Shown here piece after piece: positions 7,585-23,011 of a DNA stretch of 64,000 nucleotides; the stretch's first letter is position 1, and each line of letters starts with the position of its first letter. Under the pieces are notes generated by a model, which ran no database searches, had not been told where the DNA came from, and worked only from the letters and a program-made list of their open reading frames with translations. Made by a program: the position numbers and the translations under genes. Source of the DNA: Dehalobacter sp. DCA (GTDB lineage Bacteria > Bacillota > Desulfitobacteriia > Desulfitobacteriales > Syntrophobotulaceae); contig NC_018866.1 in the NCBI RefSeq assembly GCF_000305775.1, forward strand, positions 2,623,001-2,687,000, given 5' to 3'.

Positions 7585-7733
7585 GCCATCCATGGCGCCG
7601 GCAGCTTTATACCATCCTTAGTAACGCTGCACCGTAAAAGCTATTTAACGCTTCACCCTTCCATGGACATCGCGGCATTAGGCCACCCATGGGCGTCATA
7701 CAAGAATACGGTACAGTTTGCTGTACCGTATTC
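7585..7733. repeat. Palindromic repeat region with 13-bp hairpin
   Basis: The yqeK-RRM gap (7553-7854) holds no gene. It contains CCATCCATGGCGCC and CCACCCATGGGCG, fragments of the window's palindromic repeat family, and a perfect 13-bp hairpin, GAATACGGTACAG (7704-7716) with its complement at 7721-7733 around TTTG. The hairpin has no clear U-run on either strand; it may end the RRM transcript. Confidence 0.55.
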
Positions 7734-7854
7734 TCTCGGGTCCAGGGTCCGAAAATGTAAGATAAACCAGGATTCTTCATGTGCTATTTATATAGAGTCC
7801 TACGACTCATTAAAGATCAGAATTTATCTTAACAGAAACCCCTAACCAAAAACA

Positions 7855-19976: not shown

Positions 19977-20012
19977 AAAAAAGAACATCTTCCTGACGAA
20001 AATGTTCTTTTA
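19977..20012 (-). terminator. Terminator after rodA
   Basis: On the minus strand AAAGAACAT pairs with ATGTTCTTT across a 13-base loop and is followed by TTTTTTG. It separates rodA from the spoIVF pair. Confidence 0.85.
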
Positions 20013-20066
20013 CAAATTTCTTTACAGATTTGAATAATGGCTTGTTAACTTTTGTCATTGAAGGTG

Positions 20067-21239
20067 TCAGAACATTCGTCGTTCTCCTCTGCGACTTACG
20101 CTTAAGACCAGCCCGACCGCTAGCATATTTGCCCACATCGAGCTGCCGCCGGAAGTAATAAACGGCAGAGGAATTCCGGTGACAGGCATGATTCCTGAAG
20201 CCATCCCAACATTGATGAAAACATGGAAAACAATCATTGATACGACTCCGGAGACAATCAGGACCCCATACCTGTCTCTCGATTTGGTGGCTACGGTAAT
20301 CATCCGCAAAAGCAGGATGCAGAATATAAACAACAGTATCGATGTTCCGATAAAGCCAAATTCCTCGCCCACAACTGAAAAAATAAAGTCTGTATGATGC
20401 TCAGGTAAAAAATTATACTGGGCCTGGGTGCCTTGCTGGTACCCTTTGCCCCAAATGCCTCCGGAACCTATGGCCCAAACCGACTGAATAACATGATATC
20501 CATCCCCAGAAGTATCCTTGGCGGGATCCAGAAAAGCAATAAACCGGTTAATCTGATAATCTTTCAAAGGCAACGGCAATCCTTCCAGAAATTTCAGCGG
20601 TCCGGGAAGGTTCGTGGCTAAGTGCAATGCAACAGCACCAATGGCCGCCCCAATGCAGCCGACAATCACCGCCCCAAATTTAATCGGATTCGCTCCGGCA
20701 ACAAACATCATTCCAATGAAAATCGCCCCGAACACCATCGCAGTCCCCAAATCAGGCTGAAGAAATATTAATAAAGTAGGCGGCAGTACAAACAGCAGGG
20801 GTAGAATAAAATCCTTTACATTATTCAGTTTTCCTTCCCTCTCATTGAGAAAGCTGGCAAACGTAACAATCAGCAGCACTTTGGCAAATTCCGAGGGCTG
20901 AATGCTTTGTGTAGAGGTGATAGGTATCCAGCGCTGCGCACCCTTCGCTTCAGAACCAAAAGCAAAAACGAGAAGAAGCAGGAATATATTGAAAGCGTAG
21001 ATCCAGATACCGATCTTTTTATAGTTTTCATAATCAGTAAACGCAACAATGACTGCAAGAACAATTCCTGTAGCGATCCAGACCACCTGAGTTTTCACAT
21101 AATGATACGGGTCTGACGCCATAACATTAATGGAAGCCGTGCTTAAGATCAGCAGGCTCGCCCCCAAAAGCAGCACAACTGCCAGGACCATTCCAAGATC
21201 GAGACCTCTGATAAAATTCCAATCTCTTTCCTTTATCAT
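20067..21239 (-). CDS. rodA: RodA SEDS glycan polymerase
   Basis: RodA is a SEDS-family peptidoglycan glycosyltransferase that works with PBP2 (MrdA) in the elongasome. The 390-residue protein has about ten membrane helices and the family marks ITSTQSIQPSEFAKVLLIV, QPDLGTAMVFGAIF (catalytic Asp), LPEHHTDFIFSVVGEEFGF and TGIPLPFITSGGSSMWANM. ATG 21239 with GGAG upstream. Its place in a cluster with mreBCD and mrdA favours RodA over FtsW or SpoVE. A 420-bp structured gap separates it from minE. Confidence 0.95.
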   Translation of the reverse strand: MIKERDWNFIRGLDLGMVLAVVLLLGASLLILSTASINVMASDPYHYVKTQVVWIATGIVLAVIVAFTDYENYKKIGIWIYAFNIFLLLLVFAFGSEAKGAQRWIPITSTQSIQPSEFAKVLLIVTFASFLNEREGKLNNVKDFILPLLFVLPPTLLIFLQPDLGTAMVFGAIFIGMMFVAGANPIKFGAVIVGCIGAAIGAVALHLATNLPGPLKFLEGLPLPLKDYQINRFIAFLDPAKDTSGDGYHVIQSVWAIGSGGIWGKGYQQGTQAQYNFLPEHHTDFIFSVVGEEFGFIGTSILLFIFCILLLRMITVATKSRDRYGVLIVSGVVSMIVFHVFINVGMASGIMPVTGIPLPFITSGGSSMWANMLAVGLVLSVSRRGERRMF

Positions 21240-21420
21240 ATCTGAGATACTCCATATATAGACTGCTAACCAAGATTATATCACAGATCTCTCCGTTCAC
21301 AATGATAACTTGACAAGTAATGGGTTTTTTCTTACTAAAATACGTTGAACATCTTCATACCGACCCGACTCCATACTCCAGCCGTCCAGGCTTACGAGTG
21401 TGACAAACCTCATATAGACA

Positions 21421-21480
21421 GCCTGTCCCAAATTCGAATGCGCATTCAAAATCGACACTGGTGTCGATTTTGGGACAGGC
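21421..21480. repeat. 60-bp nested palindrome forming a three-way junction
   Basis: The outer arms GCCTGTCCCAAA (21421-21432) and TTTGGGACAGGC (21469-21480) are perfect complements. Between them are a perfect 12-bp palindrome GAATGCGCATTC (21436-21447) and an 11-bp hairpin AAAATCGACAC/GTGTCGATTTT (21448-21471). The three stems could fold as a cruciform with two inner arms; the inner hairpin competes with the outer stem by 3 bases. Confidence 0.9.
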
Positions 21481-21614
21481 CTGATTGGAGGCTAACCATC
21501 AAAATAAGAAGAGTTCCTGGACTCGTTTCCACAAACCCTTGGACTTTACGTCTTGAAACTTTGAAATCAATCCTTAACTTCAAGTCCCGATACATCCATG
21601 TAAAGTCTTGTTCA

Positions 21615-21644
21615 CAAAAAAAGAAGCTCAATGCTTCCTTTTTG
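21615..21644 (-). terminator. Terminator after minE
   Basis: On the minus strand AAAAAGGAAGC-ATTGA-GCTTCTTTTTTT: a short GC-containing stem extended by A:T pairs and a long U-run, 20 bp past the minE stop. Confidence 0.8.
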
Positions 21645-21663
21645 TTTGACTTGAGCAGTTTAC

Positions 21664-21957
21664 TCACGAAATCGACTGTGTTCTCTCCATATAGTCCCTT
21701 CTAATTTTCTTTACAGGAACACTGGCCATCAGCGCGACTTCCTTCTCATCTTGATTCAGGTATACCTCCAATCCCTCTTCGTTAATCACCATATAATTCG
21801 ATATCACCTTGACCAGATCTTCTTTTAAGCGATTCATCAGGTAGGGCGATATCGTGGCACGGTCATGAACCAGAACCAGCCGCAGCCGATCTTTGGCCTG
21901 ACTACGGCTTCCGGAATTGTCCTTGCCCAGCACACGATATAATAATTCCCACAACAT
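21664..21957 (-). CDS. minE: Cell-division topological factor MinE
   Basis: MinE drives MinD off the membrane and sets its oscillation, so that division happens at midcell. The 97-residue protein has the MinD-binding beta/helix region (RLRLVLVHDRATISPYLMNR), followed by the C-terminal dimer domain (DLVKVISNYMVINEEGLEVY). AGGAGGT-like GGGGGGAGGT precedes ATG 21957, 23 bp behind minD. Normal length for MinE. Confidence 0.95.
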   Translation of the reverse strand: MLWELLYRVLGKDNSGSRSQAKDRLRLVLVHDRATISPYLMNRLKEDLVKVISNYMVINEEGLEVYLNQDEKEVALMASVPVKKIRRDYMERTQSIS

Positions 21958-21980
21958 AATTACCTCCCCCCAGTGCAGGG

Positions 21981-22775
21981 CTAGCGTATGCCAACTAAAT
22001 TTTTCAGTTTATCCATCAGGGAATTTGATACATCCAGGTTCATTAATGGGACTTCTTCGCCTCTTACCCTCTGTGCAATCCTCCGGTAAGCTTCGCCCGC
22101 TTTGGAAACGCCGTCCATGACTGCGGGTTCTCCTCTGTTGGTCGATACAATAATCTTCTCGTCCTCCGGTACCACACCGAGAAGATCAATAGCCAAGATA
22201 TCAACGATATCCTCAATGTCCATCATGTCCCCTTGTTTAACCATCCGTGGTCTGATTCTGTTAATAATTAGTTTTGGATTACGCAGATCCGAACTTTCCA
22301 ATAGTCCGATAATTCTGTCGGCATCGCGGACAGCACTGACCTCCGGCGTCGTAACGACAATTGCTTTGTCCGCACCGGCGATTGCATTGTAAAAGCCCTG
22401 CTCAATCCCAGCCGGACAATCGATCAACGTATAATCAAATTCTTCACGCAGCTCTTCGCAGAGAACCTCCATCTCGTCGGGGCTTACTGCTGTTTTGTCT
22501 TTCGTCTGAGCAGCCGGAAGCAGATGCAGGCTGTTGAACCGCTTGTCCTTAATAAGTGCTTGTTTGATCCTGCAGCTGCCGCTTGTAACATCGACAATAT
22601 CATAGACGATCCTATTCTCGAGGCCCATAACAACATCAAGATTGCGAAGGCCGATATCCGTGTCGACCAATGCAACTTTAAATCCGGCAAAAGCCAGGGC
22701 TGTCCCCAAATTTGCTGTTGTAGTAGTTTTCCCTACGCCACCTTTCCCTGAAGTTACTACAATTGTTTCACCCAT
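21981..22775 (-). CDS. minD: Septum-site ATPase MinD
   Basis: MinD is a membrane-bound ATPase that positions the division inhibitor. The 264-residue protein has the deviant Walker A GKGGVGKTTTTANLG (residues 10-24), switch II-like LIDCPAGIEQGF and the C-terminal amphipathic helix for membrane binding (NSLMDKLKNLVGI). MGETIVVTSGK at 22775 is the likely start. It pairs with minE, but minC, often placed upstream in this cluster, is absent; the 236-bp gap to mrdA cannot hold it. Confidence 0.96.
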   Translation of the reverse strand: MGETIVVTSGKGGVGKTTTTANLGTALAFAGFKVALVDTDIGLRNLDVVMGLENRIVYDIVDVTSGSCRIKQALIKDKRFNSLHLLPAAQTKDKTAVSPDEMEVLCEELREEFDYTLIDCPAGIEQGFYNAIAGADKAIVVTTPEVSAVRDADRIIGLLESSDLRNPKLIINRIRPRMVKQGDMMDIEDIVDILAIDLLGVVPEDEKIIVSTNRGEPAVMDGVSKAGEAYRRIAQRVRGEEVPLMNLDVSNSLMDKLKNLVGIR

Positions 22776-22823
22776 AACCAAGCCTGCCTTTCATCATAAA
22801 TGATTAATGCATTGTCTTACATT

Positions 22824-22994
22824 TCAGTTATAATTTTCCATTGCCAAGTAAAAAATAAATCCCCTCTTCAGAATTTCAACCAGTACCTTGTTAGCCCAGC
22901 GTAAGCTTTGATCTGTTTCTGTGTAAGAAGATTCTACAATCCCTTTTGCTTTTCCTTTCGTAAAGAGAAAAAACCGAGGATCAAATTCCCCGGT
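22824..22994 (-). pseudogene. Possible gene remnant without start codon
   Basis: Between mrdA and minD the minus strand has an open frame of about 55 codons with protein-like composition (TKGKAKGIVESSYTETDQSL, then RWANKVLVEILKRG) ending in TGA at 22824-22826. An in-frame stop lies just upstream and no ATG, GTG or TTG precedes the sensible part. It overlaps the mrdA terminator. It could be the tail of a decayed gene or chance; no family is recognised and it does not resemble MinC. Confidence 0.25.
22968..22993 (-). terminator. Terminator after mrdA
   Basis: CCGGGGA-ATTTGA-TCCTCGG followed by TTTTTT on the minus strand, 18 bp past the mrdA stop. It suggests minD-minE use their own promoter. 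Confidence 0.8.
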
Positions 22995-23011
22995 ATTTCT
23001 TATTTATATGA

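Follow-up and report, generated by a model that had tools for sequence, protein, structure and literature searches.

A 60-bp compound palindrome between minE and a gene of the FtsW/RodA/SpoVE family in Dehalobacter sp. DCA is probably a DNA site and not an RNA, and its sequence suggests two adjoining target sites for proteins of the DUF3102 (PF11300) family, with different specificities and common outer arms. This explanation accounts best for the data, and its support comes from the dispersed family of sites to which the element belongs, the placement of such sites at DUF3102 genes, their covariation with the recognition helix, and a 27-bp identity with a site inside a DUF3102 gene of the same genome. 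Of the possibilities raised in the original prediction (a recombinase or replication site, a protein-binding cruciform or a structured RNA), a predicted protein-binding DNA site fits best and a structured RNA fits poorly.

Anatomy and neighbourhood of the element

The window, the whole 64-kb stretch of DNA analysed, carries the element at positions 21421-21480, where sequence and script checks delimit two dyads within one pair of outer arms; neither the element nor its two sites is assigned to a strand. The left outer arm, GCCTGTCCCAAA (21421-21432, plus strand, 12 bp), corresponds to the TGTCCC arm found in the dispersed family described below, and the right outer arm, TTTGGGACAGGC (21469-21480, plus strand, 12 bp), has 21469-21471 in common with the second dyad. 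The first site (21430-21447) comprises the left half AAATTCGAATGC and a perfect 12-bp inner palindrome, GAATGCGCATTC (21436-21447), and its core is that of the upstream site at locus L182 (recognition key QKEK, see below). The second site (21446-21472) shares all 27 of its 27 bp with the site inside the DUF3102 gene at G000:1487030, whose key is QKER, G000 being the window genome. Within it lies a hairpin (21448-21471) with perfect 11-bp arms at 21448-21458 and 21461-21471 and a 2-nt loop. Three perfect nested stems had been described; each proved perfect in the script check, but since the right hairpin arm overlaps the right outer arm at 21469-21471, the three can never all be complete together. 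The symmetry does exceed chance as claimed: perfect arms of at least 11 bp with a loop of at most 4 occur at five places in the 64-kb window and at zero to two in each of 20 Markov-1 shuffles, neighbouring centres of one palindrome being scored separately. A further 32-bp near-perfect palindrome at 7703-7734 falls outside the TGTCCC-palindrome family.

Upstream of the element lies minE (PF03776; 21664-21957, minus strand) and downstream the FtsW/RodA/SpoVE-family gene (PF01098; 20067-21239, minus strand). A terminator-like hairpin behind minE (21623-21637, no strand assigned) is the only such match in the region 21200-21700 and stands at the expected distance of about 140 bp. The element itself has no terminator-like match, in which a T run would trail a GC stem, and a terminator reading was set aside. 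A promoter of the FtsW/RodA-family gene is predicted at 21275-21302 (minus strand, TTGTGA-16-TATAAT), the single match found where shuffles gave a mean of 1.1. The element is thus placed after the minE terminator and before the predicted ftsW promoter. Its flank at 21387-21420 (minus strand, ..TATGAGGTTTGTCACACTCGTAAGCCTG) corresponds to the 5' leader that DUF3102 genes with upstream sites carry. On the other side, about 115 bp between the element and the minE terminator (21485-21610) have inverted ends, GACTTTAC/GTAAAGTC; this segment occurs in G000 and G003 and is missing from G001.

Among the four congeners examined, the element is present at the minE-ftsW place in G003 and G001 (97% and 89% identity across the matched query) and missing in G002 and G004, so that the absence from close relatives that would have told against it holds for half of them. 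The nested palindrome is intact in G000 and G003 and largely so in G001, where the first dyad is unchanged, whereas in the second a single pair has changed from A-T to C-G in a compensated way, another is now G-T and a third is lost. These changes are modest evidence, read from sequence, that the symmetry may be maintained.

A dispersed palindrome family and DUF3102 genes

The genome-wide search for copies that had been suggested revealed that the element is not unique and belongs to a dispersed family of palindromes of about 44 bp, further members of which we located by BLAST and pattern searches. In 15 copies of 44 bp, 95.7% of cells are paired, a level reached in none of 500 shuffles; changes are two-sided in 34 cells and one-sided in 2, and G-U pairs are almost absent. 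Compensatory changes, sought in relatives under the original prediction, are found both in the G001 second dyad and throughout the family. A covariance model built from the 15 copies has matches in 40 of the 73 genomes of the order, and it recovers the window element at G000:2644420-2644481 (E 1.7e-8). The 3.07-Mb window genome has 12 such places: four with TGTCCC arms (the window element included), one solitary place without such arms, one within a DUF3102 fragment and six inside DUF3102 genes.

When 84,980 species were scanned for the pattern, in a collection that may omit records of the window's own genome, 23 stretches matched: 20 in Desulfosporosinus, one in a Peptococcaceae MAG and two in Flavobacterium branchiophilum. 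The last two (L135, L137), from an unrelated phylum, include three TGTCCC-palindrome pattern matches on one contig. The same pattern gave no match in viral contigs, and the 60-bp element had none in plasmid and phage collections. AAAATC-N12-GATTTT with one mismatch allowed returned mostly chance matches in the element's own genome. An orthology of copies in G000 and G020 (706584, 2153234) was dropped because the match spans only about 97 bp.

Several family copies directly precede a gene for a DUF3102 product. PF11300 occurs in 36 of the 73 genomes, with nine copies in G000 and up to 38 (G034), and in none of 14 control genomes. Palindrome and domain are both present in 34 genomes, both missing in 31 and found singly in eight (Fisher p 3e-12, kinship ignored), an association that is partly built in, since the palindrome model (R1) also catches sites inside DUF3102 genes. 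These in-gene sites encode residues 83-90 of the same DUF3102 protein. An in-gene palindrome score of at least 8 was reached by 37 of 59 full-length genes, compared with 0.4% of 5,900 synonymous-codon shuffles. Among 113 genes, of which 59 are bacterial and 54 come from viral contigs, 64 score at least 6, and the centre of every one of these 64 palindromes falls 10 nt ahead of the same leucine-type codon.

Of 168 domains we kept 152 (108 chromosomal, 44 viral), the rest being without the motif needed to place helix or site. Among the 108 chromosomal genes, 82 have an in-gene site and 28 an upstream palindrome (score at least 10; not all of the TGTCCC kind), 12 have both and 10 neither; upstream sites typically stand about 110 bp ahead of the DUF3102 domain. 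The in-gene threshold is passed by 21 of the 44 counted viral-contig genes, so the feature is not limited to these chromosomes. The viral loci, 54 in all, were found with an alignment query, a single DUF3102 protein having found no relative in the viral scan. A viral-contig DUF3102 protein had no match in the phage collection, and PHROGs matches were to families of unknown function only.

Neighbours of DUF3102 genes include DUF1659/DUF2922 or PcfJ genes. DUF1659 and DUF2922 genes adjoin DUF3102 repeatedly (L125, 800-1308, minus strand; L136, 1550-2085, plus; L120, 1475-1983, plus; assigned by Pfam matches for L125 and L136 and by translation similarity for L120), suggesting a common module. 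In viral contigs, one DUF3102 gene follows a PcfJ gene (L265) and another precedes a REP_ORF2-G2P gene (L226). The gene adjoining the DUF3102 gene at G000:1487030 looks like ftsZ, judged by eye from its translation. Two DUF3102 genes of the window genome (L188/L189; G000:928706 and 3046295) match at 96.6% identity across 950 bp, the similarity ending sharply on both sides in unrelated sequence, and from this pair the gene appears to duplicate or move as a single-gene unit. A degraded copy (L285, G000:1980776) has, by eye, a QKER helix together with a different type of site (AAATTCGCAACC) and resembles a chimera. Our literature searches found incidental mentions of DUF3102 only, with no described function, and no description of such sites among reports on palindromes in these genera or on in-gene parS-like sites.

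Recognition helix and half-site

In the AlphaFold2 model of the L136 protein (mean pLDDT 88.6), helices 45-52 and 57-70 are read as a putative helix-turn-helix. Residues 58, 59, 62 and 63 (L003 numbering, which is the model's plus one) lie in the first turns of the second helix, and they have the strongest covariation with the half-site when the site's own codons are excluded. In partial Mantel tests on 100 genes the correlation was 0.365 for the helix-turn-helix (p 0.002), 0.04 for the N-terminal part (p 0.13) and 0.13 for the C-terminal part (p 0.002), values that shared inheritance or gene conversion will inflate, as helix and in-gene site are no more than about 100 bp apart. With these four residues as a key, examples of in-gene half-sites are TTCCCAAGC for QSNN, TTCGCAAGC for QRNN, TTCGGAATC for QSNK, TTCGTCAGC for QRNR and ATCGACACC for QKER.

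For 40 further genes, partly from genomes of the first set and therefore not phylogenetically independent, the key predicted the site core with 1.60 mismatches of 9, against 1.9-2.7 for other parts of the domain and 3.83 at random; the replication set comprised 60 regions, from which 50 genes were counted. Pairs at least 90% identical elsewhere that have at most two of the four key residues in common differ by a mean of 3.25 bases (n=4), compared with 0.31 for same-key pairs (n=51). L168 (G000) and L212 (G001) are 91.6% identical over 2.9 kb, yet the helix (QSDR versus QSNK) has changed along with both halves of the site; identity in the flanking parts of the domain is 95% and 100%. Such a joint change could also result from gene conversion of the entire block. 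Among 12 genes with upstream sites the helix-site test was not significant (p = 0.10); L136 (QKER; site ATCGACAAC) is the only one of the 12 with an exact key match.

Structural comparison provides a lead toward the ParB/Noc proteins. The best Foldseek match in the PDB was Spo0J (E 1.4, not significant alone), and VIA-align returned Noc (Z 5.8; 94 residues, rmsd 2.8), Spo0J-parS (5.3) and Noc-NBS (5.3), in a ranking where unrelated coiled coils reach similar Z and further ParB chains rank below. Behind DUF3102 itself, the Pfam family that scores next is HTH_ParB, which 6 of 37 members match (best E 0.0014), and a PDB sequence search gave nothing convincing. The modelled resemblance of the DNA-binding domains is weak, below the level that would prove kinship. 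The model places the DNA-binding part first and long helices at the end; only DUF3102 passes the Pfam cut-off in the scanned proteins, an N-terminal CTP-binding (ParB/Srx) domain not being found, and for this reason we do not file DUF3102 as ParB. PMC7383237 places ParB/Noc specificity in four interface residues and describes the recognition helix as entering the major groove. Like the ParB/parS and Noc/NBS systems of the Spo0J family, DUF3102 has perfect palindromic sites at several places in a genome and, if the predicted binding is correct, reads them through a helix-turn-helix with few specificity residues. Unlike in those systems, DUF3102 sites measure 26-44 bp with a centre that varies from paralogue to paralogue, a site lies within the coding sequence at a fixed codon, and a genome may have up to 38 paralogues.

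Proposed origin and competing readings

From these observations we infer that DUF3102 proteins are putative DNA binders, probably dimeric, with a ParB/Noc-like recognition helix. Each would most likely bind its own palindrome directly and in dimeric form, which would serve autoregulation or supply a nucleation point; the in-gene half-site tracks the recognition helix of its own gene, and orphan sites would be relics or secondary targets. Most likely the window site remains from a DUF3102 unit that had an upstream site, its flank being the 5' leader of such a unit. Its nested shape may have arisen by fusion, through loss of the DNA between the middles of two neighbouring sites, after which each original site would supply one outer arm. 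At L142 and at L152 the two site types occur together, separated by about 230 bp, and L142 has, by eye, a DUF3102 remnant downstream; L017 looks like a second fusion of this kind. At the minE-ftsW place the element may have a regulatory or nucleation role.

Present use is a separate matter from the kind of site, and here there is almost an even chance that the element is a dead relic, left over from the 5' part of a DUF3102 unit that has since been lost, and that no protein reads it now. The flanking DUF3102 leader has no gene behind it, sites outlast genes elsewhere (in the degraded copy at G000:1980776 and in L142), and the element is absent from G002 and G004; on the other hand, the QKER protein whose own site matches the second dyad throughout is still encoded in the genome, and the palindrome keeps its symmetry in G000, G003 and, for the most part, G001. 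A small mobile palindrome, REP- or MITE-like and spreading as a single-strand hairpin, would explain the compensated changes by hairpin replication and the DUF3102 link by co-mobilisation. The uniform length and the paired changes of the dispersed copies, the roughly 97 bp common to non-homologous places in G000 and G020, and the sharp-ended duplication of DUF3102 units (L188/L189) are consistent with this reading, which is nevertheless unlikely, as it predicts neither a single fixed codon position, in viral contigs too, nor centres that follow the recognition helix.

Less probable still is a structured RNA or mRNA hairpin controlling expression of minE or ftsW. The minus-strand fold of the element is a three-way junction with z = -5.3 (none of 200 shuffles equally good; plus strand z = -3.9, 1 of 200), which speaks for this reading. 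The position between terminator and predicted promoter argues against it, as do the predominance of two-sided changes in the family and the lack of any Rfam match up to E 1 across 20000-23000. Watson-Crick pairs make up 1064 of the 1148 cells in the 82 chromosomal in-gene sites, and the sense-strand mismatches are A/C in 48, G/T in 14 and other in 22 (strand is ambiguous for perfect palindromes, which leaves mismatched pairs unaffected), whereas an mRNA hairpin would prefer G/T.

The preferred reading of the element as adjoining DUF3102 target sites has partial counterparts in other systems. Lambda O-type replication initiators have their origin inside their own gene, in a linker, and DUF3102 likewise has its predicted target DNA inside its own gene; the lambda O sites are iterons, whereas DUF3102 has one palindrome, and a replication role of DUF3102 is without support in these data. 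Rickettsia palindromic elements and REP sequences are dispersed palindromes with paired changes, some within coding sequence. Unlike these, the DUF3102 in-gene site invariably occupies one codon position in a single gene family, and it tracks the recognition helix.

We tentatively propose, at somewhat less than even chances, that DUF3102 proteins are self-addressed DNA binders whose own linker codons carry the palindrome they read, with a simple residue-to-base code and dozens of parallel reader/site pairs per genome, and that orphan compound sites join two readers, here between minE and ftsW. If this is true, DUF3102 would gain a function class, that of a sequence-specific DNA binder, and its target would be readable from the gene itself, together with a testable recognition code. 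The up to 38 paralogues per genome would then form a natural panel for specificity evolution in which reader and site are physically linked, and might also supply orthogonal labels for marking genome loci.
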